From positions 3,286,001-3,350,000 of the forward strand of contig NZ_CP160398.1 in assembly GCF_040729435.1 (NCBI RefSeq): a stretch of DNA of 64,000 nucleotides, read 5' to 3'. Below are positions 1 to 43,429 of the stretch, one piece after another. Below the pieces are notes generated by a model. That model did not search any database. It was not told where the DNA came from and worked only from the letters and a program-made list of their open reading frames with translations. Position numbers and translations under genes: made by a program. The stretch's first letter is position 1. Each line of letters opens with the position of its first letter. Origin of the DNA: Pseudomonas sp. HOU2. Its GTDB lineage: Bacteria > Pseudomonadota > Gammaproteobacteria > Pseudomonadales > Pseudomonadaceae.

Positions 1-1357
1 TTTCGGTCAGACGCAGGTCGGCGTTGTCCTCACGCAGGATCAGGCGGTACTCGGCACGGGAAGTGAACATGCGGTACGGCTCTTGGGTACCGAGGGTGAT
101 CAGGTCGTCGACCAGTACGCCGATGTACGCCTCGTCGCGACGCGGGCACCAGGCTTCTTTGCCCTTCGCACGCAAGGCGGCGTTGGCCCCGGCGAGCAGA
201 CCTTGGGCACCGGCTTCTTCGTAACCGGTGGTGCCGTTGATCTGACCAGCGAAGAACAGACCGCCAATCACCTTGGTTTCCAGGCTGTATTTCAAATCGC
301 GCGGGTCGAAGTAGTCGTACTCGATCGCATAACCCGGACGCACGATGTGCGCGTTTTCCATGCCGCGGATCGATTGCACGATCTGCAATTGCACGTCGAA
401 CGGCAAACTTGTGGATATCCCGTTCGGGTACAGCTCATGAGTGGTCAGGCCTTCCGGCTCGATGAACACCTGATGGCTTTCCTTGTCGGCAAAGCGGTGA
501 ATCTTGTCTTCGATCGACGGGCAATAACGCGGACCAATGCCCTCGATTTCGCCGGCAGCGGAATACATCGGCGAACGGTCAAGGTTCGCCGCGATGATTT
601 CGTGGGTGCGGGCGTTGGTATGGGTAATCCAGCAACTGACCTGGCGCGGATGCTGTTCCTTGTTGCCCATGAACGACATGACCGGGATCGGCGTATCGCC
701 TGGTTGCTCAGTCATGACCGAGAAATCCACAGATTTGCCATCGATGCGCGGTGGTGTACCGGTTTTCAGGCGACCGACACGCAACGGCAGTTCACGCAGA
801 CGATGTGCCAGGGCAATCGATGGTGGATCACCGGCGCGACCACCGGAAAAATTCTGCAAACCGATGTGGATAAGTCCACCGAGGAAGGTACCAGTGGTCA
901 ACACCACGGAATCGGCGAAGAACCGCAGACCCATTTGCGTGACAACACCACGTACCTGCTCTTGCTCGACGATCAGGTCGTCAGCGGCCTGTTGAAATAT
1001 CCACAGGTTCGGCTGGTTTTCCAGAATTTCGCGAACAGCTGCTTTGTAAAGAATACGGTCGGCCTGCGCACGGGTTGCCCGTACGGCTGGACCTTTGCGG
1101 CTGTTCAACACGCGAAACTGGATACCGCCCAGATCGGTAGCCATGGCCATCGCGCCGCCGAGGGCGTCGATTTCCTTGACCAGATGGCTTTTGCCAATGC
1201 CACCGATGGCCGGGTTGCAGCTCATGGCACCGAGGGTTTCCACGTTATGCGTCAGCAACAGGGTTTTTGCCCCCATACGTGCTGAGGCCAGTGCTGCCTC
1301 GGTACCGGCATGACCGCCGCCGATGACGATCACTTCAAAACGGGAAGGGAAATCCAC
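1..1357 (-). CDS. mnmG: MnmG (GidA), tRNA uridine 5-carboxymethylaminomethyl modification enzyme, 3'-truncated by window edge
   Basis: FAD-dependent subunit that, with MnmE (encoded at 5974-7344), modifies the wobble uridine (cmnm5U34) of certain tRNAs. The reverse strand is open from 1357 to the window edge, giving about 452 of the roughly 630 residues usual for the family. The N-terminus reads [18 protein letters not shown], containing the FAD-binding [10 protein letters not shown] motif, and [14 protein letters not shown] follows. The start is a GTG at 1357, and a second GTG lies directly upstream at 1360. I chose the inner one because it gives the family N-terminus. The C-terminal part that binds MnmE lies outside the window. 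A perfect DnaA box (865-873) falls inside the gene. The assignment is secure. Confidence 0.96.
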
Positions 1358-1360
1358 CAC

Positions 1361-1925
1361 GCACCTCGTGCCTGCTTAAGTAGGTATTCAGGAATAGTTT
1401 GAGATCAGGTTTCTGGACCTGGTCGACAAGTATAGGGACTTCGCCCTTCCTAAAGAACCCTTTGCACAAAATTTAACCAGCTGTGGAGAACTCGAGGTTA
1501 AAAGAATAAAAAAGAGAGAAATTTATAAAACCTTTGTTTTAATGCTTATTCTTACTGACCGACCTTTCTGTGGATAGATTGCTACAGGCCTTATTATTCA
1601 ATGTGTACAGAGTTTCAAAACCCTGTTATCAGGTCCTCAGGAGGCCCTTGGATAACCGGTTTAAGCCTGTGGATGAATGGGGTGGTTATCCACAGAGGCA
1701 GTTATATCCAGTTTTCACGCCCTGTTATCAACTGACCTCAGAGGCGGTTATTCACAGGGCTTAATCCACAGAAATTCAACCAGACGGTTTTTTCAGGACG
1801 CAGTAAAACGCCACCGAGAGATCGGAGACGAGCATGAAGTCGATAGAGGGATGTGACAGGGCTATTGTGAGAGAACGTAACAGAGGCTAATAATAGCCAT
1901 TATCATTAACTCGTCAGTTTCTCCC
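1361..1925. other. Origin-like intergenic region with DnaA boxes upstream of mnmG
   Basis: This 565-base gap holds no convincing gene. From about 1485 to 1560 it is very AT-rich. It is followed by a DnaA-box array: a perfect TTATCCACA at 1686-1694 and one-mismatch boxes at 1569-1577, 1668-1676, 1748-1756 and 1762-1770. The block CTCAGAGGCGGTTATTCACA (about 1738-1756) is nearly identical to one in oriC at about 10297-10315. From memory, Pseudomonas chromosomes carry two fragments able to replicate autonomously, one next to dnaA and one next to gidA (mnmG), and this fits the second. The right end carries the Fur site and the promoter of the sigma factor gene. Whether it fires here is unknown. 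Confidence 0.6.
1886..1904 (+). promoter_or_regulatory. Predicted Fur box controlling the iron cassette
   Basis: The site GCTAATAATAGCCATTATC matches the 19-base Fur consensus GATAATGATAATCATTATC at 15 of 19 positions. It ends 21 bases before the sigma factor start codon. FecI-type sigma genes are classically Fur-repressed, so position and family agree. I infer that the sigma gene and the co-translated anti-sigma gene are derepressed under iron limitation. Confidence 0.75.
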
Positions 1926-2432
1926 ATGTCCCTACCCGCCCATCATGCTGCGATCGAGCAAATCTACGAGCAACACCATTCGTGGCTGTATGGATGGCTG
2001 AAAGGCAAACTGCACGACGCCTGCGATGCTGCCGATGTCGCGCATGACACTTTCGTGCGGATCCTCGCGGCACGTAATGCGTCGCAGATTCGCGAACCGC
2101 GGGATTATCTGGCGACCATTGCACGTGGCCTCGTCATTGATCGCTATCGAAGACAGGCCATCGAAGTTGCCTACTTGCAGACCTTGGCTGCTCGACCAGA
2201 AGCCACCGCCATCAGCGAAGAAGACAAGGCGCTGATCATCGAAACCCTGATCGCTGTGGATAAAGCCTTGGCCGGTCTGGGCGCGCGAACCCAGAAGATC
2301 TTCATGCTTTCGCAGATCGACGGTCTGACCTATCAACAGATCGCTGCGCAGTTGCAGGTTTCCCTGACCACAGTAAAGAAGCACATGATCCGCGCCCTGA
2401 CGGAATGTGCCCTGATCATGGCGCAGCGTTGA
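1926..2432 (+). CDS. FecI-family ECF RNA polymerase sigma factor
   Basis: Iron-responsive ECF sigma factor of 168 residues, the usual length. Region 2 is at about residues 10-75 (ADVAHDTFVRIL, RDYLATIARGLVIDRYRR). Region 4 helix-turn-helix is at about 115-160 (LTYQQIAAQLQVSLTTVKKH). It should direct polymerase to the siderophore receptor gene downstream once released by its FecR partner. A Fur box ends 21 bases upstream. The stop codon overlaps the start of the next gene (TGATG), so translation is probably coupled. A perfect DnaA box (2255-2263) falls in the coding sequence. The exact paralogue (FoxI-, FiuI- or other-like) cannot be settled by eye. Confidence 0.9.
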   Translation: MSLPAHHAAIEQIYEQHHSWLYGWLKGKLHDACDAADVAHDTFVRILAARNASQIREPRDYLATIARGLVIDRYRRQAIEVAYLQTLAARPEATAISEEDKALIIETLIAVDKALAGLGARTQKIFMLSQIDGLTYQQIAAQLQVSLTTVKKHMIRALTECALIMAQR

Positions 2433-3379
2433 TGGCCACTGCACCAAACCGCAAGGTTTTCGAAGCGGCTGCCAGTTGGTACGTGCAGTTTCAGGCCGAT
2501 CCGCCGACCCTCGCCGATCAAAAAGCCTGGCAGCTGTGGATAGATAGCGATCCAGCGCATCTGGCGGCCTGGAACCAGATGGAACAACTGCAGCGTCAGC
2601 TCGGCACTTTGCCGCTGGATTTGAAACGTCGCGCACTGAATACCGGCCAACAAAGGCGCCAGATCCTGAAATTGTTGCTGCTCGCGACAGGGACGGGGAT
2701 CCTTGGCTGGAACGCCCAACAACATACCTCCCTCGGAAATGCCTGGGCTGATTACAAAACCGGCGTTGGCCAGCGTCGTAACATCTCATTGGCGGATGGC
2801 AGCCAGATCCAGCTCAATACCGATACGGCCATCGATGTGTCTTTCGACGCAACGCAACGGCTGATTCGTTTGCGCTCGGGTGAAATCCTCATTCAGACAG
2901 GCAAGCTCGGCGATCAGCGGCCGTTTTTGGTCGAAACCCGGGACGGTCGGATTCAAGCGTTGGGTACCCGTTTTTCTGTGCATAAGTTGTCGGGCTCAAC
3001 GCGGGTCGGCGTGCTGGAAGATCGGGTCAGCGTGCAACCCGCTGATCAATCAACGAGCGCGATGATCCTGAAAGCAGGCGAAGGTGCGGATTTCGATAGT
3101 CGGCATATCGGGGTCCTTTACCCCTTTAAATCCTCGGCAGTGGCCTGGACCAACGGCCAGCTGATTGTGCTGGATGCGCGGCTGGGCGAGGTAATCGAAG
3201 AGCTGGGGCGTTATCGCAGCGGTGTTCTGCACTGCGATAGTCGTGCCCGGGATCTAAGGGTATCCGGCACCTTTCGGCTCGATTCCACTGATGCCGTGCT
3301 GGCCAATCTTCAGGCCTCGTTACCGATTAACGTCCGCTACTTCACCCGTTACTGGGTCTCGATCAGTCATAGCGTCTGA
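2432..3379 (+). CDS. FecR-family anti-sigma factor / signal transducer
   Basis: Cytoplasmic-membrane regulator that relays siderophore binding by the receptor to the FecI-type sigma factor. About 315 residues. The N-terminal DUF4880-like segment (ASWYVQFQADPPTLADQKAW) should bind the sigma factor. A hydrophobic stretch near LKLLLLATGTGILGW is the single membrane span. The periplasmic FecR domain follows (ISLADGSQIQLNTDTAIDV, then SGEILIQTGK). The C-terminal part, with VSGTFRLDSTDAVLANL, is the usual receptor-facing end. I chose the ATG that overlaps the sigma stop codon. An in-frame ATG at 2405 would add nine unlikely residues. It is the middle gene of a sigma/anti-sigma/receptor cassette. 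Confidence 0.88.
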   Translation: MATAPNRKVFEAAASWYVQFQADPPTLADQKAWQLWIDSDPAHLAAWNQMEQLQRQLGTLPLDLKRRALNTGQQRRQILKLLLLATGTGILGWNAQQHTSLGNAWADYKTGVGQRRNISLADGSQIQLNTDTAIDVSFDATQRLIRLRSGEILIQTGKLGDQRPFLVETRDGRIQALGTRFSVHKLSGSTRVGVLEDRVSVQPADQSTSAMILKAGEGADFDSRHIGVLYPFKSSAVAWTNGQLIVLDARLGEVIEELGRYRSGVLHCDSRARDLRVSGTFRLDSTDAVLANLQASLPINVRYFTRYWVSISHSV

Positions 3380-3496
3380 TTGAAAATTTCCTGGGGAAAA
3401 AAATCAAAAGCAGGGTTATCTTTTTTTGTCCTGACCCGGCCCTACAGGTAATCGCGATAAACGCGGCTCTTCGCCACCTTCAGGGCTTATCCACAC

Positions 3497-5932
3497 ATGC
3501 GTCTTCCCACGTTCCGTCAGCGTTTTTCCCACCACTGCATTGCCTACAGCCTACTGATGACCAGTGCCGCGTCCTGCCTGGTAATGACCCATAACGCCTT
3601 CGCGGCAACGGTCGCGCAGCGCTACACCATTGCTGCCGGCCCGCTGGACAGTGCTTTGAGCCAATTCGCCTCCACTGCAAACGTGATTCTGTCGTTCTCG
3701 CCGCAGCAGACCAGCCGTTTACGCAGTACCGGACTGAACGGCAACTTCACCGTCGAACAGGGATTCGCCCAACTGCTGCAAGGCTCAGGTTTGCAAGCCG
3801 TACCGCAAGCGCCGGGTAGCTACATTCTGCAGGCGATGCCCAATGATGATTTGCTGGAGCTGGCCCCGACCAACATCAACGGGCAATTGGCCAATCCGAT
3901 GGATCTGGATTACGCCGCCGACGTCGGCTACAAGGTGCAGAACAGCCGGATCGGTACGAAAACCAGCACGCCGTTGTCGGAAACGCCGCGTTCGGTATCG
4001 GTGGTGACCGCCCAGCGCATGAAAGATCAGAAATCTCAGACGCTCACCGAGGTACTCGGCTACGTTCCCGGCATCTTCGCCCCACCGTTTGCAGCGGGCG
4101 ACAGCCTGGCCGGCGATCTGTTTTTCATTCGTGGTTTCAACGCCACCGATTACGGCTACGGCCTGTTGCGCGATGGACTGCGTGTACAGGGCAACCGTTA
4201 TGACACCAGCACCGAGCCTTACGGTTTGGAGCGCGTGGAAATTTTTCGTGGACCATCGTCCTTGCTCTATGGGGAAAACGCCCCGGGCGGCCTGGTGAAT
4301 CTGGTGAGTAAACGGCCGACCGCAGTTCCTCGTGGCGAAGTGCAACTGGGTTATGGCTCAAATAATCGCCGGCAGATCGGCGTCGATGTGTCCGGGCCAC
4401 TCAACGACAGCGGCAATGTGCTGGGGCGAGTGGTGATGCTCGGGCGCAAGTCGGACACCCAGACTGATCACGTACCGGATGACCGCATTTACATCGCCCC
4501 GTCGCTGACCCTGAATTTCGACGACTTCAACACCCTGACCCTGTTGGCCAACTACCAGAAAGATCACACCAATATGGAACTGGGTCTGCCGGCGGCCGGC
4601 ACCTTGCTGAGCAATCACAACGGCAAGCTATCCAAAGGCACCATGCTCGGCGATCCGGACTGGAACACTTTCGAACGGGAAACCTGGAGCACCGGTTATG
4701 AGTTCAGCCATTCCTTCAACGATGACTGGCAGTTCCGGCAGAACTCGCGCTACATGCAGTCGCGCATCACCCGCCATGAAACCTGGCCGGGCAACCTCAA
4801 TAACGCAGGCTTCGGCACGCGCCTGAACATGACCGCGTACGATCGCTTCAACAAATCCATGGTGTATTCGCTGGATAACCAACTGGAAGGCAAATTCCAG
4901 GTCGGCGAGCTGGAAAACACCATGCTGTTCGGCGCCAGCTACGACCGCACTTCGTTCAATCAGGACTGGAATGCCGGCATCGTCGGGCCGATCGATATCT
5001 ACAACCCGGTTTACTTGCGCGATCCGACTACACCGATTGCGGTGCAGAACACCTTGCTTGAGCAGCAGATGAAAGGTGTTTATGCACAGCTCCAGAGCAA
5101 GTATGACCACTGGCTGTTCCTGCTTGGCGGTCGTCAGGACTGGGTCGACAGTGACTTCCGCGACAAGGTGGCCAAGGGCAGTGACATCAGTTCCGAGGAC
5201 AAGAAGTTCACCTACCAGAGCGGCGTGATGTACCAGTTCGACAACGGCATGACGCCGTATGTCAGCTATTCCACCTCATTCGTACCGGTGCAGCAGATAT
5301 CCAATGCCGGCGCGCCGCTCGATCCGATCACCAGCAGCCAATACGAAGTGGGCCTCAAGTACGAACCGATCGGCTGGGATACCGCGTTCACCGCGTCGGT
5401 ATATGACCTGCGCAAAAAGGACGACACCTACTTCGACTCGACCACGTCGACCTATCGCCAGGTCGGCGAAAGCCGTTCCAAAGGTGTGGAGCTGGAACTC
5501 AACAGCAATCTGACCCAGAACCTCAATGTGACAGCGGCGTACACCTACACCGACGCGCGGATTACCAAGGACGCGGCGACCTCGTTGGTCAAAGGCCACC
5601 AGATGACCGGCGTGCCTCGTAATCAGGCGTCGGTCTGGGCCAAGTACCGTTTCCTCGATGGCGATTTGAAAGGTTTGTACGTGGGTGGTGGCGTGCGTTA
5701 CTTCGACAGTGCCTTCGCCTACACCTCGCCTTCGCTGTACGGGAAGCTGGATGCCGGCGACGTCACGCTGGTAGATGCGGCGATCGGCTTTCAAATCGAT
5801 TCGCACTGGAGTGTCGACCTGAATGCCAAGAACCTGTTCGACAAGGAATATGTGTCGGGATGCAACGATGCTGGGCGTTGCTACTGGGGCGAAGATCGCA
5901 CTTTGCTCGGTACGGTGTCTTACAATTGGTGA
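3497..5932 (+). CDS. TonB-dependent siderophore receptor with N-terminal signalling (STN) domain
   Basis: Outer-membrane ferric-siderophore importer of the transducer type, 811 residues. A signal peptide ends after AFA at residue 36. The STN domain is at about 44-112 (YTIAAGPLDSALSQFA), a TonB-box-like DLLELAPTNI lies near 118-127, the plug starts near 158 (TPLSETPRSVSVVTAQRM; ERVEIFRGPSSLLYGENAPGG), and a 22-strand-type barrel ends in SYNW. The STN domain, together with the upstream sigma/anti-sigma pair, indicates surface signalling on ligand binding. The barrel resembles FoxA/FiuA/FhuE-type hydroxamate receptors, but the ligand is inference. A DnaA box (3487-3495) sits directly before the start. 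There is no siderophore synthesis gene nearby, so it probably takes up a foreign siderophore. Confidence 0.92.
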   Translation: MRLPTFRQRFSHHCIAYSLLMTSAASCLVMTHNAFAATVAQRYTIAAGPLDSALSQFASTANVILSFSPQQTSRLRSTGLNGNFTVEQGFAQLLQGSGLQAVPQAPGSYILQAMPNDDLLELAPTNINGQLANPMDLDYAADVGYKVQNSRIGTKTSTPLSETPRSVSVVTAQRMKDQKSQTLTEVLGYVPGIFAPPFAAGDSLAGDLFFIRGFNATDYGYGLLRDGLRVQGNRYDTSTEPYGLERVEIFRGPSSLLYGENAPGGLVNLVSKRPTAVPRGEVQLGYGSNNRRQIGVDVSGPLNDSGNVLGRVVMLGRKSDTQTDHVPDDRIYIAPSLTLNFDDFNTLTLLANYQKDHTNMELGLPAAGTLLSNHNGKLSKGTMLGDPDWNTFERETWSTGYEFSHSFNDDWQFRQNSRYMQSRITRHETWPGNLNNAGFGTRLNMTAYDRFNKSMVYSLDNQLEGKFQVGELENTMLFGASYDRTSFNQDWNAGIVGPIDIYNPVYLRDPTTPIAVQNTLLEQQMKGVYAQLQSKYDHWLFLLGGRQDWVDSDFRDKVAKGSDISSEDKKFTYQSGVMYQFDNGMTPYVSYSTSFVPVQQISNAGAPLDPITSSQYEVGLKYEPIGWDTAFTASVYDLRKKDDTYFDSTTSTYRQVGESRSKGVELELNSNLTQNLNVTAAYTYTDARITKDAATSLVKGHQMTGVPRNQASVWAKYRFLDGDLKGLYVGGGVRYFDSAFAYTSPSLYGKLDAGDVTLVDAAIGFQIDSHWSVDLNAKNLFDKEYVSGCNDAGRCYWGEDRTLLGTVSYNW

Positions 5933-5939: not shown

Positions 5940-5969
5940 AGGGGCTGTGGATAAATGTCCACAGCCCCT
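5940..5969. terminator. Bidirectional hairpin between receptor gene and mnmE
   Basis: A perfect 12-base stem (AGGGGCTGTGGA / TCCACAGCCCCT) with a 6-base loop lies between the convergent receptor and mnmE genes. An A-run precedes it, giving a T-run on the minus strand, so it should stop mnmE transcription best. The left arm and loop contain a perfect DnaA box at 5946-5954, an unusual overlap. Confidence 0.7.
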
Positions 5970-7401: not shown

Positions 7402-7425
7402 GAGTGGTGTTATCCACAGAGTAAG

Positions 7426-9108
7426 TTACGCCTCGGCTTTTTTCGTCGCCGCTTCGATCTTACGCGTGATGTACCACTGTTGGGCAATCGACAGGCAGTT
7501 GTTCACAACCCAGTACAGCACCAGACCTGCAGGGAACCAGAGGAAGAAGAAGGTGAAGATGATTGGCATCATTTTCATGACCTTCGCCTGCATCGGATCC
7601 GGTGGAGTCGGGTTCAGACGCTGCTGGATGAACATGGTCGCGCCCATGATGATCGGCAGGATGAAGAACGGATCTTTGATCGACAGGTCAGTGATCCACA
7701 GCATGAATGGCGCTTGGCGCATTTCCACGCTTTCCAGCAGAACCCAGTACAGCGAAAGGAAAACCGGCATCTGCACGAGGATCGGCAAGCAGCCGCCCAG
7801 CGGGTTGATCTTCTCTTTCTTGTACAGCTCCATCATGGCTTGCGACATTTTCTGCCGGTCATCGCCATGTTGCTCTTTCAGTGCAGCCAGTTTCGGCGCA
7901 ACGGCACGCATGCGCGCCATGGATTTGTAGCTGGCAGCCGACAGCGGGAAGAAGATCCCTTTGATCAGCATGGTCAGGAAGATGATCGACCAGCCCCAGT
8001 TACCCACAATCGCGTGGATGTGTTGCAGCAACCAGAAGATTGGCTGGGCGATGAACCACAGAATGCCGTAGTCGACGGTCAGTTCCAGACCTGGGGACAA
8101 CTGTTTCAGTACAGCCTGGCTTTTCGGACCGGCGTACAGAATGGCGCTGGTTTCAACTTTCGCGCCCGGTGCAGCGGTCAATGAAGGACCGGTGTAACCG
8201 ATGATGTAGTTGCCCTTGCTGTCCTTACGCGTCTGAACGATGTTGTTTTCGCCCTTCGGCGCAACCCATGCAGTCACGAAGTAGTGTTGCAGCCAGGCTA
8301 CCCAGCCACCGGTGACGGTTTCCTTGAGCTGACCTTTGTCCATGTCTTTCATGGACACTTTCTTGTACGGCTCGGAACTTGTCCACAGGGCTGCGCCCAG
8401 GTAAGTCGCGGTGCCGGTGGCAGTGGTCGACGAAGGGTCGGCACTTGCATCGCGCTTCAGTTGGGCGAACATCGAACCCGACCAAGGCTGCGCGCTCTGG
8501 TTATCCACAAGGTAGGTCACGGTCACGTCATACAGGCCGCGTTTCAGGGTGAAACGCTTGATGTAGTTGACGCCGTCCTTGCTGAACTTCAGGTCGACGA
8601 CCAGTTGGTCCTGACCGTCAGCCAGTTGATAACTTTTCTTCTCCGAGGCGTAAACCGGACGACCGGCCGGGCTAGCGTCCGGACCGTTGGTGCCGATCAG
8701 GCCGCTTTGTGCCAGATAAGTACGCTCGCCGCCGTTGTCGAACAGCTGAAACGGCACATCAGGACGATCCTGACGACGTGGATACAGTGGCAAAGTCAGT
8801 TGAGCAACGTCACCGCCCTGTGGATCGATCGCCAGATCGAGCACGTCGGTTTTGACCTGGATCAGATCCTTGCTGGCAGCGACCGGAGTTTCCACAGGTG
8901 CGCTGGTATCGCTGGCGGCACGCGGAATATCGTCACTGGCGGAAGCGTTATTGCCAGGAACGGTGTCCGGCAAACCGGATGCAGTCGTACTGGAAGCAAC
9001 ATTCTGAGTCGGCAGGGCAGCCTGGCCATAGTCCTGGTTCCATTTAAGAACCATAACGTAGGACACGATTGCCAGGGCGACGATCAGGATCGTGCGTTTG
9101 ATATCCAT
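7426..9108 (-). CDS. yidC: YidC membrane protein insertase
   Basis: Inner-membrane insertase (Oxa1 family) acting alone or with SecYEG, 560 residues as in other gammaproteobacteria. It begins MDIKRTILIVALAIVSYVMV (first membrane span), followed by a Ser/Ala/Pro-rich linker and the large periplasmic P1 domain (about residues 60-340). The conserved insertase core follows, with GNWGWSIIFLTMLIKGIFFP, YKSMARMRAVAPKLAALKEQ and LGGCLPILVQMPVFLSLYWV. The C-terminus is basic. yidD lies two bases upstream, so they are co-translated. A perfect DnaA box (8501-8509) is inside the gene. Confidence 0.97.
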   Translation of the reverse strand: MDIKRTILIVALAIVSYVMVLKWNQDYGQAALPTQNVASSTTASGLPDTVPGNNASASDDIPRAASDTSAPVETPVAASKDLIQVKTDVLDLAIDPQGGDVAQLTLPLYPRRQDRPDVPFQLFDNGGERTYLAQSGLIGTNGPDASPAGRPVYASEKKSYQLADGQDQLVVDLKFSKDGVNYIKRFTLKRGLYDVTVTYLVDNQSAQPWSGSMFAQLKRDASADPSSTTATGTATYLGAALWTSSEPYKKVSMKDMDKGQLKETVTGGWVAWLQHYFVTAWVAPKGENNIVQTRKDSKGNYIIGYTGPSLTAAPGAKVETSAILYAGPKSQAVLKQLSPGLELTVDYGILWFIAQPIFWLLQHIHAIVGNWGWSIIFLTMLIKGIFFPLSAASYKSMARMRAVAPKLAALKEQHGDDRQKMSQAMMELYKKEKINPLGGCLPILVQMPVFLSLYWVLLESVEMRQAPFMLWITDLSIKDPFFILPIIMGATMFIQQRLNPTPPDPMQAKVMKMMPIIFTFFFLWFPAGLVLYWVVNNCLSIAQQWYITRKIEAATKKAEA

Positions 9109-9984: not shown

Positions 9985-10467
9985 GGTCAATTTCCAACCA
10001 GCGTTTCCTTATAAATAGATCTCTGGAGCTTCCGGAACCGAAAACCTGTTTGCCAGACATAAAAATAAAGAAGGGAATTATTTAAAGCTTTTCTGTAAAG
10101 CTTGTAAAAGCTAGGGCAGCCATCTTCTGTGGATAACCATCTTCAGCCCTTGTAGAGCGTGATGTACAGAGAATGACAACTACAGTGGAAAACCGTGTTC
10201 AGCCTGTGCTGCGCTGTCGGATAACCTGTGTGTGGAATGGCCTGTTATCCACAGGCTGGTTATCCACCGAGTTCCACCCCCAGTTGTCCAGTGCCCTCAG
10301 AGGCGGTTATCCACAGAGCTTATGCACACGCCGTTGGTCGCCTTTTTACCGGTTAACGCATTGATTAATCATGGTCACCACACAACCTGCATGTGGATAA
10401 GTGGACAGCTCGCCGCTACAATGGCCGCTTGTTTTTGCCTCACCGGCTTTCAACTTAGGGGATATCC
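9985..10467. other. Chromosomal replication origin oriC
   Basis: The rpmH-dnaA intergenic region. An AT-rich stretch at about 10005-10120, with runs of A/T, is the likely unwinding element. It is followed by DnaA boxes: perfect TTATCCACA at 10138-10146 (reverse), 10245-10253, 10307-10315 and 10392-10400 (reverse), and one-mismatch boxes at 10260-10268 and 10320-10328. This arrangement between rpmH and dnaA is the established Pseudomonas oriC. The dnaA ribosome-binding site AGGGGA lies at its right end, and the boxes near the dnaA start would also allow DnaA autoregulation. An open frame here (10173-10364) is not considered coding. Confidence 0.93.
10005..10125. other. Probable DNA unwinding element of oriC
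   Basis: The most A/T-rich 120 bases of the rpmH-dnaA gap, including TTATAAATAGATCT and CATAAAAATAAAG. It sits directly beside the first DnaA box (10138-10146). Position and composition are what is seen. Opening at this place is inference from origin architecture. Confidence 0.6.
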
Positions 10468-11991
10468 GTGTCAGTGGAACTTTGGCAGCAGTGCGTGGAG
10501 CTTTTGCGCGAGGAGCTGCCTGCCCAACAATTCAACACCTGGATCCGTCCACTACAGGTCGAAGCCGAAGGCGACGAGTTGCGCGTCTACGCACCGAACC
10601 GTTTTGTGCTGGACTGGGTCAACGAAAAGTACCTCGGTCGCGTCCTTGAACTGCTGGATGAGCACGGCAACGGCATGGCGCCAGCTCTTTCCTTATTAAT
10701 AGGCAGCAAACGCAGTTCGGCACCGCGTGCCGCGCCGAATGCGCCGTTGGCCGCTGCGCAGGTGTCCCAGGCTCAGGCCAATACCGCGCCGGCCAGTACG
10801 CCAGCGCCCGCTCCAAGTGCGGCCCCGGCCAAGCGCTCGACGCAGAAAACCGAGGAAGTCAGTGAAGAGCCGTCCCGCGACAGCTTTGACCCGATGGCCG
10901 GTGCGGCCTCGCAACAGGCCCCGGTTCGCGCCGAACAGCGCACCGTTCAGGTCGAAGGCGCGCTCAAGCACACCAGTTACCTGAACCGTACCTTCACCTT
11001 CGAGAATTTCGTCGAAGGCAAGTCCAACCAGCTCGCCCGCGCGGCGGCCTGGCAGGTGGCGGACAATCCCAAGCACGGCTACAACCCGCTGTTCCTTTAT
11101 GGCGGCGTCGGCTTGGGTAAAACCCACTTGATGCACGCAGTGGGTAATCATCTATTAAAGAAGAACCCGAATGCCAAGGTCGTGTACCTGCATTCCGAGC
11201 GCTTCGTGGCCGACATGGTCAAGGCGTTGCAGCTGAACGCGATCAACGAGTTCAAGCGTTTCTACCGTTCGGTGGACGCTCTGCTGATCGACGATATTCA
11301 GTTCTTCGCCCGTAAAGAGCGTTCCCAGGAAGAGTTTTTCCACACCTTCAACGCCCTGCTTGAAGGGGGCCAGCAGGTCATTCTCACCAGTGACCGCTAC
11401 CCTAAAGAAATCGAAGGCCTTGAAGAGCGCCTCAAATCCCGCTTCGGCTGGGGCCTGACGGTTGCCGTCGAGCCGCCGGAGCTGGAAACCCGCGTGGCGA
11501 TCTTGATGAAGAAGGCCGACCAGGCCAAAGTCGAGTTGCCTCACGACGCGGCGTTCTTCATTGCCCAGCGAATTCGTTCCAACGTCCGTGAGCTGGAAGG
11601 CGCGCTGAAACGCGTGATCGCCCACTCGCACTTCATGGGCCGCGACATCACCATCGAGTTGATCCGCGAATCCCTGAAAGACTTGTTGGCACTGCAGGAC
11701 AAACTGGTCTCTGTGGATAACATTCAGCGCACCGTCGCCGAGTACTACAAGATCAAGATTTCCGACCTGCTGTCCAAGCGCCGTTCGCGCTCGGTGGCTC
11801 GTCCGCGTCAGGTGGCCATGGCGCTGTCCAAGGAGCTGACCAACCATAGCCTGCCGGAAATCGGCGATGTGTTTGGTGGTCGTGACCACACGACGGTGTT
11901 GCACGCCTGCCGCAAGATCAACGAACTTAAGGAATCCGACGCGGACATCCGCGAGGACTACAAGAACCTGCTGCGTACACTGACCACTTGA
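10468..11991 (+). CDS. dnaA: DnaA, chromosomal replication initiator
   Basis: AAA+ initiator that binds the boxes just upstream, melts oriC and loads DnaB. 507 residues. Domain I is at about 1-80 ([18 protein letters not shown]). The Ala/Pro-rich linker runs to about 170. The AAA+ domain has Walker A GGVGLGKT at 212-219 and Walker [10 protein letters not shown] at 272-280. The DNA-binding domain IV carries the signature [15 protein letters not shown]. The start is GTG at 10468 with AGGGGA upstream. A perfect DnaA box (11712-11720) is inside the gene. dnaN follows after 39 bases. Confidence 0.99.
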
Positions 11992-26131: not shown

Positions 26132-26170
26132 GGCTTATCCACAACCCCGTTCATTCAAGGGCGCATAAAG

Positions 26171-26893: not shown

Positions 26894-28270
26894 TCAGAAA
26901 AAGCTGAGACCCACATGAAACAGCTTCTCCACATCGCGAATATGCTTTTTATCCACAAGGAACAGAATCACGTGGTCGCCGGTTTCGATCACCGTATCGT
27001 CGTGGGCGATGATCACTTCTTCGTTACGGATGATCGCGCCAATCGTGCTGCCCGGTGGCAGGCCGATTTTCTCGATCGGCCGGCCGATGACCTTGCTCGA
27101 CTTTGCATCACCGTGGGCAATCGCCTCGATGGCCTCTGCCGCACCCCGGCGCAGTGAGTGTACGCTGACGATATCGCCACGCCGCACGTGAGCGAGCAAG
27201 GTGCCGATGGTCGCCAGTTGCGGGCTGATGGCGATGTCGATGTCGCCACCCTGGATCAGGTCGACGTAAGCCGGGTTGTTGATGATCGTCATTACCTTCT
27301 TCGCGCCCAGGCGCTTGGCCAGCAGGGACGACATGATGTTGGCTTCGTCATCGTTGGTCAGCGCAAGGAAGATGTCGGCGTCGGCGATGTTTTCCTCCAG
27401 CAGCAGATCACGGTCCGACGCACTGCCCTGCAGCACCACGGTGCTGTCGAGGGTGTCGGAGAGATAGCGGCAGCGCGCCGGGCTCATCTCGATGATCTTC
27501 ACCTGGTAGCGGCTTTCGATGGCCTCGGCCAGACGCTCACCGATCTGTCCGCCACCGGCAATCACGATACGTTTGTAGGTTTCGTCGAGACGGCGCATTT
27601 CGCTCATCACTGCGCGAATATTCTCACGGGCGGCGATGAAGAAGACTTCGTCGTCAGCCTCGATCACCGTATCGCCCTGGGGCAGGATCGGCCGGTCGCG
27701 GCGGAAAATCGCGGCCACGCGGGTTTCGACATTCGGCATGTGTTCGCGCAACTGGCGCAGCTGCTGACCCACCAGCGGCCCGCCGTAATACGCGCGCACC
27801 GCGACAAGCTGCGCCTGTCCTTCGGCGAAGTCGATCACTTGCAGTGCGCCCGGATGCTGGATCAAACGCTTGATGTAGTTGGTCACCACCTGCTCGGGGC
27901 TGATCAGCACGTCGACCGGAATCGCTTCGTTCTGGAACAGCTGTTCTTCGCGATTGAGGTAGGACGCTTCGCGCACCCGGGCGATCTTGGTCGGGGTGTG
28001 GAACAAGGTGTGCGCGACCTGACAGGCGACCATGTTGGTCTCGTCGCTGTTGGTCACCGCCACCAGCATGTCGGCATCGTCGGCGCCGGCCTGACGCAGC
28101 ACTGACGGCAGCGAACCCCGGCCCTGGATGGTGCGGATGTCGAGACGGTCGCCGAGGTCGCGCAGGCGGTCGCCGTCGGTGTCGACCACGGTGATGTCGT
28201 TGGCTTCGCTCGCCAAATGTTCGGCCAGCGAACCGCCGACCTGCCCCGCACCGAGGATGATGATTTTCAT
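26894..28270 (-). CDS. trkA: TrkA, regulatory NAD-binding component of Trk potassium uptake
   Basis: Peripheral membrane protein (458 residues) that gates the TrkH/TrkG potassium channel. Two RCK (Rossmann plus TrkA-C) units are present. The first starts [20 protein letters not shown], with the acidic end of strand two in DITVVDTD. The second starts near residue 232 with [22 protein letters not shown] precedes the ATG. No trkH is in the window. rsmB lies 22 bases upstream in the same direction, so def-fmt-rsmB-trkA may form one transcript. A DnaA box (26949-26957) is near the 3' end. Confidence 0.96.
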
Positions 28271-32308: not shown

Positions 32309-32390
32309 CAGGCTTAACAAGTTACCAACAGAGTTATCCACAGCTTGTTCCGAATGGTTCGGGACTTATAACGATCAAGGATGATCCACC

Positions 32391-33488
32391 ATGCTGTCTG
32401 CCCATACGCCGGTTTCCCCTGCGGAACTGGAAGCGCGGTTGCGCCTGCACCGCTTGCCGGAAATCGGCCCGAAACGTTTTGCCAAATTGCTTGAAGCCTT
32501 CGGCTCGGCGTCAAAAGCCATCAGTGCGCCGGCCAGTGCCTGGCGTGCGCTGGGTTTACCGGCGGCGTCGGCCGAGGCGCGGCGCAGCCCCGAAGTACGC
32601 GACGGCGCCAGCCATGCGATGCGCTGGCTAGAGCACCCGCAGCAGCATTTGCTGATGTGGGATCAAGCGGATTACCCCGCGCTGCTGGCGCAGATTCCCG
32701 ACCCGCCACCGCTGTTGTTCGTGGCCGGCGACCCGATGATTCTGGAAAAACCACAGTTGGCGATGGTCGGCAGTCGCCGTGCTTCGCGTCCGGGAATGGA
32801 CACCGCCGCAGCGTTTTCCCGCAGCCTCGCCGGGGCCGGTTTTGTCATCACCAGTGGCTTGGCGCTAGGCATCGATGCGGCGGCCCATCAAGCAGCGCTG
32901 GACGTCGGCGGGCAAACCGTTGGCGTACTCGGCACTGGCCTGGAAAATTTTTATCCACAGCGCAATCGGCGCTTGGCCGATGCCATGATCGCCTCCGGCA
33001 GTGCGGTGCTTTCGGAGTTTCCACTGGACGCCGGGCCGACGGCCAGCAACTTCCCGCGACGCAACCGGATCATCAGCGGTTTGTCCCTTGGCGTGCTGGT
33101 GGTCGAGGCGAGTGTCGCCAGCGGTTCACTGATCACCGCCCGGCTGGCGGCGGAACAGGGTCGCGAGGTGTATGCGATTCCCGGTTCGATCCATCACCCC
33201 GGAGCACGTGGCTGCCATCAGTTGATCCGCGACGGTGCGGTGCTGGTGGAAACCATCGAACACATTCTCGAAGCCTTGCGCGGCTGGCAGCATTTACCGT
33301 TAGCCACAGACCCGCCGGATGCCGCGCATCCCTTGCTTGATCTGCTGCACGCCGCACCGCACACCAGCGAAGCCTTGGTCGACAGCAGCGGCTGGGCGTT
33401 GCCAAAAGTGCTGGCCGCGCTCACCGAACTGGAAATGGACGGCCGCGCAGTGTGCGAAAACGGTCGCTGGCTGGCGAGGACACGCTAG
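32391..33488 (+). CDS. dprA: DprA (Smf), DNA-processing protein
   Basis: Single-strand DNA-binding loader of RecA in natural transformation, 365 residues. A helix-hairpin-helix-like N-terminus (LHRLPEIGPKRFAKLLEAFG) precedes the Rossmann-type DprA fold at about 85-295 (VGSRRASRPG, GLALGIDAAAHQAAL, RNRIISGLSLGVLVVEA). A C-terminal winged helix (DLLHAAPHTSEALVDSSGW) completes it. A ribosome-binding site AAGGAT is present. A perfect DnaA box (32951-32959) lies in the gene. No other competence genes are in the window. Confidence 0.95.
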   Translation: MLSAHTPVSPAELEARLRLHRLPEIGPKRFAKLLEAFGSASKAISAPASAWRALGLPAASAEARRSPEVRDGASHAMRWLEHPQQHLLMWDQADYPALLAQIPDPPPLLFVAGDPMILEKPQLAMVGSRRASRPGMDTAAAFSRSLAGAGFVITSGLALGIDAAAHQAALDVGGQTVGVLGTGLENFYPQRNRRLADAMIASGSAVLSEFPLDAGPTASNFPRRNRIISGLSLGVLVVEASVASGSLITARLAAEQGREVYAIPGSIHHPGARGCHQLIRDGAVLVETIEHILEALRGWQHLPLATDPPDAAHPLLDLLHAAPHTSEALVDSSGWALPKVLAALTELEMDGRAVCENGRWLARTR

Positions 33489-38090: not shown

Positions 38091-39659
38091 TCAGTCCTCA
38101 AACCGGATCGGGCATTTCTCCGCGCCTTCCAGCTTCCTCAATTCCTCCACCACCTGCGGTCGCGCCCGGCGCAGGGTCAGGCTGCGATCCTGACGCAGCA
38201 GGCGCCGCGCCTCCTGATGCAGCATCTCCACTCCCGAGTAGTCGATGAAATTGATCTGCTGCGCCTCGATCACCACGCGCGCGCCGTGCAGCCGTTGCAG
38301 GCGCACTTGCAGGTAATGGCTGGCGCCGAAGAAGATCGAGCCGCCGACCCGCAGCACGTCCTCCTCGCCGTCGCGCCAATGCTGCACTCGCGGTTGCGAG
38401 GTGCGCTTGAGGTAGAAGAACAGCGACGCCAGCACCCCGGCGTAAATCGCCGTCTGCAATTCCAGCAGCAGCGTGGCGAGGCAGGTCAATGCCATGACCA
38501 CGAACTCGGCGTGGCTGACCCGCAGCAGCGCGCGAATGCCGCGATGATCGACCAGGCCCCAAGCGATCAGCAGAATGCTCCCGGCCATGGCCGGAATCGG
38601 AATGTGCGAAATCAGCCCGGCGCCGAAAATCGCGAACAACGCGACCCAGATCGCCGAAAACACTCCGGCCAGCGGCGAACAGGCGCCCGCCTCGTAACTC
38701 AGGCCGGAACGGGTGAACGAGCCGGCGGATAGCGAACCGGAAAAGAACGCCCCGACGATATTGGATAAACCCTGCGCGCGGACTTCCTGATTGGCATCGA
38801 GCAACTGCTGCGAGCGCGCCGAAATCGAGCGCGCGATCGACAGACTCGTCACCAGCCCGAGCATGCCCACCGCCACCGCGCTCGGCAGCAAGCGCAGCAC
38901 CAGATCGAGATCCAGCGGCAGCGCACTGAACGGTGGCAGGCGTCCGACAAAGGCGCTGACCAGATGCACGTGGCCGAACATCGCCGGCCATAACCACACC
39001 ACTGCGCTGCCCAGCACCAGCGTTATCAACAGAGTCGGCCAGCGCGGCAGCAGTTGTCTGAGGACAAAACCGACCAGCACCGTGGCCACACCCAACACCA
39101 GTGATGGTTTATCCACAGCCCGCAGGTGTTGCAGCAGGTCCATCAGACTGGCCAACGCCGTGGCTTTCGCCGGCAGATCCAGCCCCAGCAGATTGGGCAA
39201 CTGGCCGATGGCAATCACCACTGCCGCGCCGAGGGTGAAACCGAGCACCACCGAATGCGAGACGAAATTCACCAGCGCGCCGAAGCGCAGCAGGCCGAGC
39301 AGCCACTGGAAAATCCCCGCCAGAAAGCTCAGCAACAGGATCAGCGTGATGTAGTCCTGTGACGCCGGCACAGCCAAGGGGCTGACGCTGGCATACAGCA
39401 CAATCGAAATCGCTGCAGTCGGGCCGCAGATCAGATGCCACGACGACCCCCACAGGCAGGCGATCAGCACCGGGATGATCGCGGCGTAGAGGCCGTATTC
39501 CGGCGGCAGGCCGGCGATCAGCGCGTAAGCGATCGACTGCGGTAGCGCGAGAATGGCGCCGCTGAGGCCAACGACCAGATCCCGGCCGACGCTGGCGCGG
39601 GTTTGCCGCGGTAGCCAGGTCAGGAAGGGGAAAAGTGAGTGGCGACTGGGCAGGGCCAT
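38091..39659 (-). CDS. SulP-family anion transporter with STAS domain
   Basis: Inner-membrane anion transporter, 522 residues from the ATG at 39659 with GAGGA upstream. An ATG 27 bases further upstream is possible. The sulfate-transporter core has the conserved ALPQSIAYALIAGLPPEYGL and about 11-14 hydrophobic segments. A cytoplasmic STAS domain at about 430-522 (VIEAQQINFIDYSGVEMLHQ) ends the protein. The neighbouring choline-sulfate genes release sulfate, so sulfate is a plausible substrate, but bicarbonate or other anions are possible in this family. Confidence 0.9.
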   Translation of the reverse strand: MALPSRHSLFPFLTWLPRQTRASVGRDLVVGLSGAILALPQSIAYALIAGLPPEYGLYAAIIPVLIACLWGSSWHLICGPTAAISIVLYASVSPLAVPASQDYITLILLLSFLAGIFQWLLGLLRFGALVNFVSHSVVLGFTLGAAVVIAIGQLPNLLGLDLPAKATALASLMDLLQHLRAVDKPSLVLGVATVLVGFVLRQLLPRWPTLLITLVLGSAVVWLWPAMFGHVHLVSAFVGRLPPFSALPLDLDLVLRLLPSAVAVGMLGLVTSLSIARSISARSQQLLDANQEVRAQGLSNIVGAFFSGSLSAGSFTRSGLSYEAGACSPLAGVFSAIWVALFAIFGAGLISHIPIPAMAGSILLIAWGLVDHRGIRALLRVSHAEFVVMALTCLATLLLELQTAIYAGVLASLFFYLKRTSQPRVQHWRDGEEDVLRVGGSIFFGASHYLQVRLQRLHGARVVIEAQQINFIDYSGVEMLHQEARRLLRQDRSLTLRRARPQVVEELRKLEGAEKCPIRFED

Positions 39660-39913: not shown

Positions 39914-40834
39914 TCAAAGCTTTGCCTTTACAGCCGCCAAACCATCCTTGCCATCCACGGTCTTCACCCCCTCCAGCCATTTATCCAGCACCGCCGGATT
40001 GGCTTTGATCCATGCCTTCACCGCATCGGCATTGCTGACTTTCTTGTTCACCACCTCAGCCATGATGCTGTTCTCCATGTCCTGGGTGAACGCCAGGTTG
40101 GTCAGCAACTTGACCACATTCGGGCAGGCCTCGGCGTAGCCTTTACGGGTCAGGGTGTAGACGCTGCCGGTGTCGCCGAAGTATTTCTCGCCGCCCTTGA
40201 GGTAATGCATCTTCAGCTGCACGTTCATCGGGTGCGGGGTCCAGCCGAGGAAGGTGACGAATTTCTGCTTTTTCACCGCCCGCGACACTTCGGCGAGCAT
40301 CGCTTGTTCGCTGGATTCGATCAGCTTCCACTGGCCGAGGTCGAAGTCGTTCTTCTTGATGATTTCCTGCAGCGAAATGTTCGCGGGTGCACCGGAACCG
40401 ATGCCGTAAATCTTTTTCTCGAATTTGTCGGCGTATTTGTTCAGGTCGGCAAAGTCATGCACGCCCGCGTCCCACACGTAATCCGGCACGGCCAGGGTGA
40501 ATTCGGTGCCGTCGAGGTTCTTCGCCAGTTGCGTGACGTCACCGGTGGCGACGAACTTGTCGTAGAAGCCCTGCTGCGCCGGCATCCAGTTGCCGAGGAA
40601 CACATCCACCTGACCGTCCTTCAAACCGCCGAAGGTGATCGGCACCGCGAGGGTGTCGACCTTGGCCTTGTAGCCCATGCCGTCCAGCAAAAAACCGGTG
40701 ATGGCGTTGGTCGCGGCAATGTCGCTCCAGCCAGGATCAGCCATTCTCACCGTTTCGCAGCTTTGCTCGGCAAATGCCGAGGCGCTGCTCAGGGCCAGCA
40801 GGCCAATCGTCAGTGCTGTGGATAACTTGCGCAT
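39914..40834 (-). CDS. choX: ChoX, choline ABC transporter substrate-binding protein
   Basis: Periplasmic choline-binding protein (OpuAC family), 306 residues. The signal peptide MRKLSTALTIGLLALSSASA ends after AFA at about residue 22. MADPGWSDIAATNAITGFLL, FLGNWMPAQQ and GIGSGAPANISL are typical. The Trp and Tyr residues that form the aromatic quaternary-ammonium box are present in these segments. It lies 15 bases after betC in the same direction. No permease or ATPase (choW, choV) is in the window, so it must share a transporter encoded elsewhere. A DnaA box (40817-40825) overlaps its start region. Confidence 0.9.
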   Translation of the reverse strand: MRKLSTALTIGLLALSSASAFAEQSCETVRMADPGWSDIAATNAITGFLLDGMGYKAKVDTLAVPITFGGLKDGQVDVFLGNWMPAQQGFYDKFVATGDVTQLAKNLDGTEFTLAVPDYVWDAGVHDFADLNKYADKFEKKIYGIGSGAPANISLQEIIKKNDFDLGQWKLIESSEQAMLAEVSRAVKKQKFVTFLGWTPHPMNVQLKMHYLKGGEKYFGDTGSVYTLTRKGYAEACPNVVKLLTNLAFTQDMENSIMAEVVNKKVSNADAVKAWIKANPAVLDKWLEGVKTVDGKDGLAAVKAKL

Positions 40835-40849: not shown

Positions 40850-42364
40850 TTATTGGTTTTGGCAGGGTTGTGGATAACGGGCCTGGCGCTCCAGATCGTC
40901 GAGGTCGATGTGGTTGCGCATGTACTGCTGACTGGCGTCCACCAGCGGCTGGTGATCCCAGCTCTTCAGCTTGCCGATGGTCAGGGCATCGGCAACAAAA
41001 CGGCGGCGGCGCTGGCTGGCGAGCACCTCGCGGTGAATCGCCGGGATATCCCACTTAGCCCGCGCTTCGGCGAGAAAATCGTCGAACAGCTGGCGATGTT
41101 GCGATGACTGGCTGAGTTCTTCGAGCTCACGCGGGTCGTTATGCACATCGAAGAGTAGGCACGGGTCGCTTTCACTGTAGATAAATTTGTAGGCGCCACG
41201 GCGGATCATCATCAGCGGGCTGACCGTGCCTTCGGCCATGTATTCGCCGAACACTTCATCATGCCCGCCCTGCCCTTGCAGATGCGCCAGCAGCGAGCGG
41301 CCGTCCAGCGGCAAGCCCGGTTCCAGCACGCCTCCAGCCAGCTCGACGAAGGTCGGCAACAGATCGGCAGTGGACACCGCGGCGCTGACCCGGCCGGCAG
41401 CGAACTGCCCCGGCGCACTGATCAACAGCGGCACCCGCGCAGCCATCTCGAACCAGTGCATTTTGTACCAGAGGCCTTTCTCGCCGAGCATGTCGCCATG
41501 GTCGCCGGAGAAGACGATGATGGTGTCATCGATCAGCCCGGTATCTTCGAGAGTTTGCAGGAGTTTGCCGACGTTGGCGTCGATATAGCTGCACGCGCCG
41601 AAGTAGGCACGCCGTGCATCGCGAATCTTATCCACAGGCAATGGCTTGTCCCACAGGTCATAGACCTTGAGCAGGCGCTGCGAGTGTGGATCGAGGGAAT
41701 GTTGCTCCGGGGTGGTCGGCAGCGGGATGTTACCGTCGTCGTACAAATCCCAGAACGCCTTGGGGATGGTGTACGGATCGTGTGGGTGGGTCATCGACAC
41801 GGTCAGGCAGAACGGTTGGTCGCCGTCCTCGCGAATGTGATCGAACAGGTATTGCCGGGCCTTGAACACCACCTCTTCATCGAAGTCGAGCTGGTTGGTA
41901 CGCACGCACGGACCCGCCTGCAGCACCGAGGACATGTTGTGATACCAGCTCGGGCGTACGTCCGGCTCGTCCCAGTTCACCGCCCAGCCGTAGTCGGCCG
42001 GGTAGATGTCGCTGGTCAGGCGTTCTTCATAACCGTGCAACTGATCCGGGCCGCAGAAATGCATCTTGCCCGACAGCGCGGTGCGGTAGCCGAGGCGGCG
42101 CAGGTAGTGGGCGTAGGTCGGAATGTCGGCGGGGAAATCGGCGGCGTTGTCGTAGGCGCCGATCTTGCTCGGCAACTGGCCGCTGACCAGGGTGAAGCGC
42201 GATGGCGCGCACAGCGGACTGTTGCAGTAAGCGGCATCGAACACCACGCCTTGGGCGGCGAGGCGCGAAAGGTTCGGCAGTTTGATCGGCGACGGGCCGT
42301 AAATTGGCAACATTGGCGCGGCCATTTGATCGGCCATGATGAAAAGAATGTTCTTGCGCTTCAT
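40850..42364 (-). CDS. betC: BetC, choline-sulfatase
   Basis: Type I sulfatase hydrolysing choline-O-sulfate to choline and sulfate. 504 residues from the ATG at 42364 (MKRKNILFIMADQMAAPMLP). The formylglycine motif is CAPSR at 52-56, preceded by the metal-binding Asp12. FSGDHGDMLGEKGLWYKMHW is the second sulfatase signature. The C-terminal extension ends HIDLDDLERQARYPQPCQNQ, like other BetC proteins. An ATG 18 bases upstream is less likely. Operon order is betC-choX. DnaA boxes are at 40869-40877 and 41628-41636. Confidence 0.95.
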   Translation of the reverse strand: MKRKNILFIMADQMAAPMLPIYGPSPIKLPNLSRLAAQGVVFDAAYCNSPLCAPSRFTLVSGQLPSKIGAYDNAADFPADIPTYAHYLRRLGYRTALSGKMHFCGPDQLHGYEERLTSDIYPADYGWAVNWDEPDVRPSWYHNMSSVLQAGPCVRTNQLDFDEEVVFKARQYLFDHIREDGDQPFCLTVSMTHPHDPYTIPKAFWDLYDDGNIPLPTTPEQHSLDPHSQRLLKVYDLWDKPLPVDKIRDARRAYFGACSYIDANVGKLLQTLEDTGLIDDTIIVFSGDHGDMLGEKGLWYKMHWFEMAARVPLLISAPGQFAAGRVSAAVSTADLLPTFVELAGGVLEPGLPLDGRSLLAHLQGQGGHDEVFGEYMAEGTVSPLMMIRRGAYKFIYSESDPCLLFDVHNDPRELEELSQSSQHRQLFDDFLAEARAKWDIPAIHREVLASQRRRRFVADALTIGKLKSWDHQPLVDASQQYMRNHIDLDDLERQARYPQPCQNQ

Positions 42365-42403: not shown

Positions 42404-42431
42404 GCTGCGATCGAGCATGGAGTCCATGCCC

Positions 42432-42456
42432 TGTCCGGTAAAGCCCGCGCCGGACA
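42432..42456. other. Inverted repeat just upstream of the LysR gene
   Basis: TGTCCGG-N11-CCGGACA, seven-base perfect arms, ending 22 bases before the LysR gene start. It could be a second operator or a 5' UTR hairpin. There is no T-run. Confidence 0.4.
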
Positions 42457-42478
42457 ATGACTAGGATAAGCACCGCTT

Positions 42479-43429
42479 ATGTATGAAGCCCTCGGTAATC
42501 TGTCCCTCGACCTGTTGCGCGCCTTCGAAGCGGCGGCGCGCCATCGCAGCTTTACCGCCGCCGCGGTGGAGCTGGGCACCACGCAACCGGCGATCAGCCA
42601 ACAGATCAAGCGTCTGGAAGAGCAGCTTGGAGCACGGCTGTTTGACCGAATATACCGCGGCATTGAACTGACCGAGGGCGGGGTGATTCTGTTCGAGCAG
42701 GTTCAGCTCGGTTTGCAGCATATCGATGCAGGATTGAGTGCGATCAGCACGCAGCAGCAACATGAAGTGTTGCAGGTCGCCACCGATTTCGCATTCGCCG
42801 CTTACTGGCTGATGCCGCGCCTGCACCGCTTCCACGAAGCCAACCCGAACGTCGATGTCAGCCTGGTCACCAGCGAGCGCAACCACAACATGCTGCGTAC
42901 CGACATCGATGTCGCGGTGCTGTTTGGTGACGGCCGATTCAAACAGGGCGAGAGCCATTGGCTGTTCAGCGAAGAAGTGTTTCCAGTGTGCAGCCCGCAA
43001 CTGCTCAAGGGCCGCACCCTGCCCTTGCCTGCTCAGGCGTTGCTGGAGTTTCCGTTGCTGCACTTGCGCGGGGAAAACAGCAGCAACTGGTTTGACTGGA
43101 GCGGTCTGTTTCGCGAACTGGGCATCAACACGCCGCCTGCACCGGGGCAATTGCGTTTCGACAATTACACCCTGCTGATTCAAGCGGCGATTGGCGGTCA
43201 GGGTGTGGCCATCGGCTGGCGGCATCTTGTGGATAACTTGCTGACCCAGGGCTTGCTCTGTCGGCCTGTCACCGAGACCACGTTGTCGCGTCTGGGTTAT
43301 TACGTGGTGTTGCCGCAGCGCAAACGCCGGGGTGCGTTGATTCAGCAGTTTGTCGACTGGTTGATGACCGAACAGGCCAGCAGCGCAGAGTCCCTCGCCG
43401 GAGTGGCATTGCCATCGATTGCGGTTTGA
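42479..43429 (+). CDS. LysR-family regulator of choline-sulfate use
   Basis: 316-residue LysR-type transcription factor. The winged HTH is at about 8-67 (LSLDLLRAFEAAARHRSFTA, TTQPAISQQIKRLEEQLGAR). The effector-binding domain is at about 95-300. It is divergent from betC-choX with a 114-base gap, which is how such regulators are usually arranged with their targets. The name betR has been used for homologues, but this is not proven here. A DnaA box (43228-43236) lies in the coding sequence and is the last seen in the window. Confidence 0.87.
   Translation: MYEALGNLSLDLLRAFEAAARHRSFTAAAVELGTTQPAISQQIKRLEEQLGARLFDRIYRGIELTEGGVILFEQVQLGLQHIDAGLSAISTQQQHEVLQVATDFAFAAYWLMPRLHRFHEANPNVDVSLVTSERNHNMLRTDIDVAVLFGDGRFKQGESHWLFSEEVFPVCSPQLLKGRTLPLPAQALLEFPLLHLRGENSSNWFDWSGLFRELGINTPPAPGQLRFDNYTLLIQAAIGGQGVAIGWRHLVDNLLTQGLLCRPVTETTLSRLGYYVVLPQRKRRGALIQQFVDWLMTEQASSAESLAGVALPSIAV

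Follow-up and report, generated by a model that had tools for sequence, protein, structure and literature searches.

Perfect DnaA boxes around oriC

The sequence analysed here (the window) is a 64-kb stretch, positions 3286001–3350000, of the complete single-contig chromosome of Pseudomonas sp. HOU2 (6047544 bases, 6.05 Mb), and its subject is the set of perfect DnaA boxes (TTATCCACA) that surround the replication origin. Both oriC (at about 10.1–10.4 kb) and dnaA lie inside the window, in a region whose gene content (mnmG, rsmG, parB, mnmE, yidC, dnaA, dnaN, recF, and gyrB) is typical of Pseudomonas; among the matches listed, the closest relative of the encoded DnaA was from P. gingeri (94%). 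A minus-strand start at 9901 was read from the sequence as that of rpmH, encoding ribosomal protein L34. The four-box stretch between rpmH and dnaA agrees with the published position of the P. putida oriC and shares with the Pseudomonas-type origin both this placement and the TTATCCACA boxes (PMC3056050).

The window contains 26 perfect boxes distributed over both strands (Table 1). In a preliminary description of this DNA, 25 of the 26 starts had been given exactly; the one placed at 10138 was misread and lies at 10128. The same description had the boxes stop at 43.2 kb and over a third of them lie inside genes, in agreement with our counts: no site was found between 43237 and 64000, the genome has none at 34–50 kb on either side of oriC, and 12 of the 26 boxes are genic. 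Borders of coding sequences (CDS) were taken from our own codon-score map, which omits at least the fecR-like open reading frame (ORF) 2405–3379, so that the noncoding share is slightly overstated.

Whole-genome counts revealed 154 TTATCCACA sites versus 17 for the reversed motif. A dense block of 38 sites (the island) extends from −29.2 to +33.0 kb from oriC at 54 sites per 100 kb; it reaches 19 kb to the left of the window start, where 12 further boxes are located, and the next box rightward follows only at 3372254 (window coordinate 86254, beyond the window end). From 34 kb to 1.32 Mb a plateau of 107 sites was observed, and the remaining about 3.4 Mb contain nine. A step model placed the outer edge of the plateau at 1290 kb, i.e. 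43% of the replichore, with 4.35 versus 0.26 sites per 100 kb inside and outside, the box density of the island being approximately 200 times that of the far zone; zone edges, here and below, were fitted to the very data that they describe. Up to 200 kb from oriC, a step placed at 33 kb gave a better fit than exponential decay plus a constant (log-likelihood −362.5 versus −369.1). The proposal of an origin-proximal DnaA titration gradient in the preliminary description was accordingly retained with respect to an origin-proximal enrichment under selection, as the density far from oriC is not equal to that of the island, whereas a smooth gradient was rejected in favour of a step followed by a plateau. 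Assuming equal fork speeds, the share of all perfect boxes already copied is 25% at 1.1% of each replichore, reaches one half at about 18%, and rises to 94% at 43%. No strand preference was detected among the 154 boxes (80 codirectional, P = 0.69), and a strand bias like that of E. coli was rejected.

It is the DnaA-box sequence specifically that is in excess. In 100 dinucleotide shuffles of the window, a mean of 0.22 sites (largest value 2) was obtained versus the 26 observed. When the 9-mers with at least five copies, among 39533 seen in the core, were ranked by island enrichment, TTATCCACA came first (38 in 63.5 kb versus 6 in 322 kb of flank, P = 4e-24), followed by 9-mers overlapping it. 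The one-mismatch variants rising most in the island were TTTTCCACA, ATATCCACA, and TTATGCACA; TTTTCCACA and TTATGCACA fit TTWTNCACA, which PMC12371093 takes as the E. coli consensus and which occurs 52 times in the core versus 19 times in the five-fold larger flank. The preliminary description had named codon usage as a possible explanation of the counts. Synonymous-codon shuffles within 51 core genes yielded a mean of 1.0 box (largest value 5 in 1000 shuffles) versus 20 observed, and codon use therefore does not explain the genic boxes. For the intergenic part of the core, a first-order Markov model predicted 0.04 boxes versus 18 observed. Inspected by eye, the sequences flanking the boxes appear unrelated, which argues against dispersed repeats. 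An origin of the boxes from composition, codon usage, or repeats was rejected on these grounds, together with the rarity of the reversed motif and of boxes far from oriC, and its probability is regarded as practically nil.

Table 1. Perfect DnaA boxes and associated features; coordinates refer to the window unless another sequence is named.
Feature	Position	Strand	Context
dnaA	10468–11991	+	TIGR00362, 633.5 bits
oriC DnaA-box core	10128–10400	.	four perfect boxes between rpmH start and dnaA
Perfect box	865–873	−	inside mnmG; intact in 16/16 aligned congeners
Perfect box	1686–1694	+	intergenic by CDS map
Perfect box	2255–2263	−	in ORF 1926–2432
Perfect box	3487–3495	+	intergenic, fecR-like ORF/TonB receptor gene
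Perfect box	5946–5954	−	41-bp gap, convergent TonB receptor and mnmE genes
Perfect box	7410–7418	+	intergenic, mnmE/yidC
Perfect box	8501–8509	+	inside yidC
Perfect box	10128–10136	−	oriC
Perfect box	10245–10253	+	oriC
Perfect box	10307–10315	+	oriC; intact in 16/16 congeners
Perfect box	10392–10400	−	oriC; intact in 16/16 congeners
Perfect box	11712–11720	−	inside dnaA
Perfect box	18461–18469	−	intergenic by CDS map; inside PhoR-like kinase ORF if start is 18382
Perfect box	20069–20077	+	intergenic; intact in 13/14 aligned congeners
Perfect box	20950–20958	−	inside gmhB-like gene
Perfect box	26077–26085	−	intergenic
Perfect box	26135–26143	+	intergenic
Perfect box	26683–26691	+	in ORF 26412–26726
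Perfect box	26949–26957	+	inside trkA
Perfect box	32334–32342	+	intergenic, upstream of dprA
Perfect box	32951–32959	+	inside dprA
Perfect box	39109–39117	+	inside sulP-like gene
Perfect box	40817–40825	−	upstream of choline-binding protein gene by CDS map
Perfect box	40869–40877	−	inside choline-sulfatase gene
Perfect box	41628–41636	+	inside choline-sulfatase gene
Perfect box	43228–43236	−	right-hand island edge; in ORF 42479–43429
Intergenic repeat array	L018:10988–11684 (own genome 2750988–2751684)		downstream of etfB

Conservation and distribution of the boxes in relatives

According to the CDS map, 20 of the 38 island boxes are genic and 18 intergenic, in a region of which about 14% is noncoding, and none of the 20 genic boxes lies in a reading frame requiring TTA, ATA, or a stop codon. 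Across 16 congeners, genic boxes outside oriC were intact in 133 of 242 cases versus a fraction of 0.24 for phase-matched neighbouring 9-mers, and intergenic boxes in 67 of 124 versus 0.17 for their controls. As the preliminary description had suggested, conservation of the in-gene boxes was also analysed at synonymous positions, the expectation being derived from identical codons at other places in the region. Third codon positions were conserved in 459 of 605 cases over all 16 congeners (360.1 expected), with 391 of 442 (282.5 expected) in ten near congeners and 68 of 163 (77.6 expected) in six distant ones; the division into near and distant was made after divergence and results had been seen. 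Judged by these alignments, there is clear selection on silent positions among the nearer members of the genus label, with turnover of the sites farther out.

The intergenic share bears on the possibility that the boxes are sites at which DnaA controls origin-proximal genes, DnaA being known as a transcription factor (PMC8203912). This would account for 18 of 38 boxes falling into so little noncoding DNA. However, many of the genic boxes are distant from any start, genic boxes are conserved as well as intergenic ones (0.55 versus 0.54 intact), one box occupies the 41-bp gap between convergent genes, and the island ends abruptly although genes go on. Gene control as the general role of the boxes is hence considered improbable.

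Within 50 kb of dnaA, 6–41 boxes were counted in the 16 congeners, with at least 22 in ten of them, versus 0–3 reversed motifs; the stretches of G024 and G027 end at contig ends. Genome-wide, boxes outnumbered reversed motifs in all 14 complete congeners, marginally so in G014 (32 versus 24). Step-like layouts were found in G003 and G020, a weaker one in G012, and hardly any in G014 (log-likelihood gains of 26.2, 15.3, 6.6, and 2.7, respectively).

Among 119 genomes sampled from 19 genera of the family, the genus labels g1, g121, and g124 had medians of 104–132 boxes versus 10–12 reversed motifs, with a range of 16–154 in g1. Of the other 16 labels, 13 had 0.6 to 3.4 times the reversed count, boxes being fewer than reversed motifs in g125, and g131, g115, and g122 reached 4.6 to 8 times from 32–46 boxes. 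Repeat arrays with a 630-bp period inflate the counts of G215 and G223: at G215:C1:141182–150010 and G223:C1:141306–147606, 15 and 11 perfect boxes, respectively, follow each other on one strand at exactly 630-bp spacing, apparently as tandem repeats in which every unit carries a box.

A survey of gammaproteobacterial loci covered 58 of 80, the other 22 having been excluded by hand, mainly as short or incomplete. In approximately 20 kb per locus, with the kilobase upstream of dnaA excluded, six Pseudomonas loci had 3–12 perfect boxes, three Stutzerimonas and Halopseudomonas loci 2–3, and the other 49 loci 0–3, with the exception of L147. This metagenome-assembled genome (uncultured gammaproteobacterium RBC015) had six boxes in approximately 20 kb as the sole non-pseudomonad with more than three, and it is possibly an independent case. 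In a further set of 113 genomes of the class, which was not used otherwise, dnaA was located in 110.

One congener, G005, differs by approximately 39 kb of box-free DNA that could not be aligned to the HOU2 region and lies between points matching +6.2 and +9.4 kb of HOU2. This insert-like stretch adjoins gyrB and spans +6.2 to +45 kb from dnaA. The displaced right half (+45 to +68 kb) contains 13 boxes, the same total as +9.4 to +33 kb of HOU2. The boxes hence appear to be part of an ancestral DNA stretch and to be able to persist after a shift by tens of kilobases. A synteny break as the cause of the right island edge was rejected: G005 has DNA that aligns with +34.5 to +52 kb of HOU2, and neither genome carries a box in it. 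To the left, the G005 alignment stops at −24.9 kb, short of the island edge.

These data also bear on a role in which boxes near oriC raise the local DnaA concentration, aid loading of oriC, and so promote initiation. An island centred on oriC with edges at −29 and +33 kb fits such a local effect better than it fits a sink, which could be placed anywhere early-replicating. The 107-box plateau to 1.29 Mb, in turn, far exceeds any local reach, and the right-hand boxes of G005 persist in their displaced position; we regard this role as rather unlikely.

A role in organising the nucleoid, which the preliminary description had also raised, or the origin domain would have DnaA or another motif-reading protein fold or tether the origin region. 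A defined, roughly symmetrical domain with edges, inside which parB and one exact parS-like palindrome are located, is in line with this idea. However, nothing independent points to such a protein, the motif and most of its tolerated variants are those of DnaA, three parS-like sites with one or two mismatches lie outside the island (−54 to −66 kb), and the plateau covers 43% of each replichore; this role is therefore also judged unlikely. The exact palindrome, TGTTCCACGTGGAACA, is located at approximately 14200 (dnaA + 3732) near the recF/gyrB junction; the parS-like sites were called with the parS consensus.

Apart from the boxes, the stretch between mnmE and mnmG contains FecR-like and FoxA/FhuA-like TonB receptor genes at 2405–5932. 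The left-hand boxes of several congeners are displaced by approximately 4.1 kb, as if 2405–5932 were missing there.

A distal box array next to etfB

The largest box group outside the island was found at 2750988–2753389, 545 kb to the left of oriC. It includes intergenic direct repeats of 182, 182, and 150 bp downstream of etfB, with one box per unit, and further boxes inside etfB and etfA. In HOU2, less than 1 kb of intergenic DNA holds five boxes, four of them perfect and one, in a repeat unit, being TTGTCCACA.

The etf genes were present in 17 of 18 congeners searched. At least three perfect boxes occurred in the 1.5-kb flank beyond etfB in 12 of these 17 (L181–L187, L189, L190, L191, L194, and L195). 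Among the others, G024 and G001 had two (the flank compared for G001 was shorter), G003 and G012 had none, and G017 had none in the flank and a five-box group approximately 11 kb off. Both etfA boxes were kept in 13 of 17, and the repeat units were strongly conserved across ten aligned arrays including that of HOU2. The array lies 0.33 to 1.1 Mb from oriC in the 12 genomes that carry it next to etfB, and 0.51–0.55 Mb in eight of these.

A scan of ten arrays with the strict IHF consensus gave no match in any of them, although a degenerate site may remain. For this reason the array was not accepted as datA. It resembles E. coli datA, which promotes DnaA-ATP hydrolysis, in grouping some five boxes into roughly 1 kb (PMC5295017); it differs in its repeat architecture and in the missing strict IHF consensus. 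We consider it a candidate control element comparable to datA.

A putative DnaA sink and its relation to known systems

The best reading of the island, to which we assign a probability of about 0.6, is that an oriC-centred block of high-affinity boxes acts as an early-doubling DnaA sink, i.e. by initiator titration, which would be the likeliest function of the island. Forks leaving oriC would copy a quarter of the perfect boxes almost immediately, DnaA would bind the newly doubled boxes, and free DnaA would drop at once and, with nearly all boxes doubled before the middle of each replichore, stay low; the low level of free DnaA would then keep the same origins from firing again. SeqA hides new origins in E. 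coli. A search for SeqA (PF03925) gave no match in 15 complete pseudomonads, with E. coli as a positive control, and a box sink could therefore matter more in Pseudomonas.

Several points weigh against titration. The silent-site conservation vanishes in the six distant congeners, with G027 clearly below expectation, and the layout is therefore not universal in the genus label; in the complete congener G014 the excess is confined to approximately 8 kb beside oriC. The absence of strand bias is unlike the lagging-strand preference of E. coli, and some boxes may be regulatory, given the high intergenic share. Absence of SeqA is common to many bacteria and proves nothing by itself. Finally, 38 boxes would hold a small share of the initiator if Pseudomonas has many hundreds of DnaA molecules. 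A sink could possibly coexist with local loading of oriC, gene control, and domain organisation.

A further-reaching proposal is that Pseudomonas and its near kin stop re-initiation by a purpose-built DNA device made up of the bounded sink, the plateau, and the five-box array. Here the chromosomal box layout itself, with 38 boxes in 62 kb, a plateau to 43% of the replichore, and an array at about 0.5 Mb, might act as a clock for the refractory period after initiation. We put this forward tentatively and hold it to be doubtful.

Chromosomal titration as a replication timer has been debated for decades. In E. coli, DnaA boxes accumulate near oriC, titrate DnaA, and favour the lagging strand (Olivi et al. 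2025, PMC12371093). Common to that case and the present one are a box excess, over permuted motifs in E. coli and over sequence nulls here, the accumulation near oriC, early doubling, and the proposed titration role. The E. coli enrichment is modest, a broad increase from centisome 98 to centisome 5 within a set of approximately 900 mostly degenerate boxes (PMC12371093), and stands beside SeqA, datA, and DARS. The Pseudomonas enrichment is extreme and consists of perfect boxes with measurable edges, in a bounded 62-kb block followed by a second plateau to 1.29 Mb, without strand preference and with visible selection on silent codon positions. Perfect boxes and TTWTNCACA sites number 38 and 52 here, compared with 2 and 11 in E. 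coli MG1655 within 33.5 kb of oriC. Conservation among relatives, by which the E. coli type of reservoir is recognised, was found here in the ten near congeners and not in the six distant ones; the lagging-strand preference, absent here, is a feature of E. coli that does not strictly define a titration reservoir.

In B. subtilis, boxes outside oriC hold DnaA, and removal of all six clusters leads to early initiation (Okumura et al. 2012, via PMC5295017). Instead of six clusters, the HOU2 chromosome has isolated boxes and small groups of them, which are scattered across 62 kb and many genes. Simulations of the initiator titration model usually place more boxes near the origin (PMC5835720). With the E. 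coli accumulation, the B. subtilis clusters, and these simulations published, the kind of system is already known; a description of this box layout in Pseudomonas was not found in the openly licensed papers searched. As far as those papers go, new here are the sharply bounded block of 62 kb, the layout in two steps, the selection on silent sites, and the conservation of the distal array. This genome is a clean test system for titration: its sites can be counted, and no SeqA was found in this bacterium. The density of the boxes and their apparent maintenance by selection suggest that the island is a built-in sponge soaking up DnaA just after replication starts.

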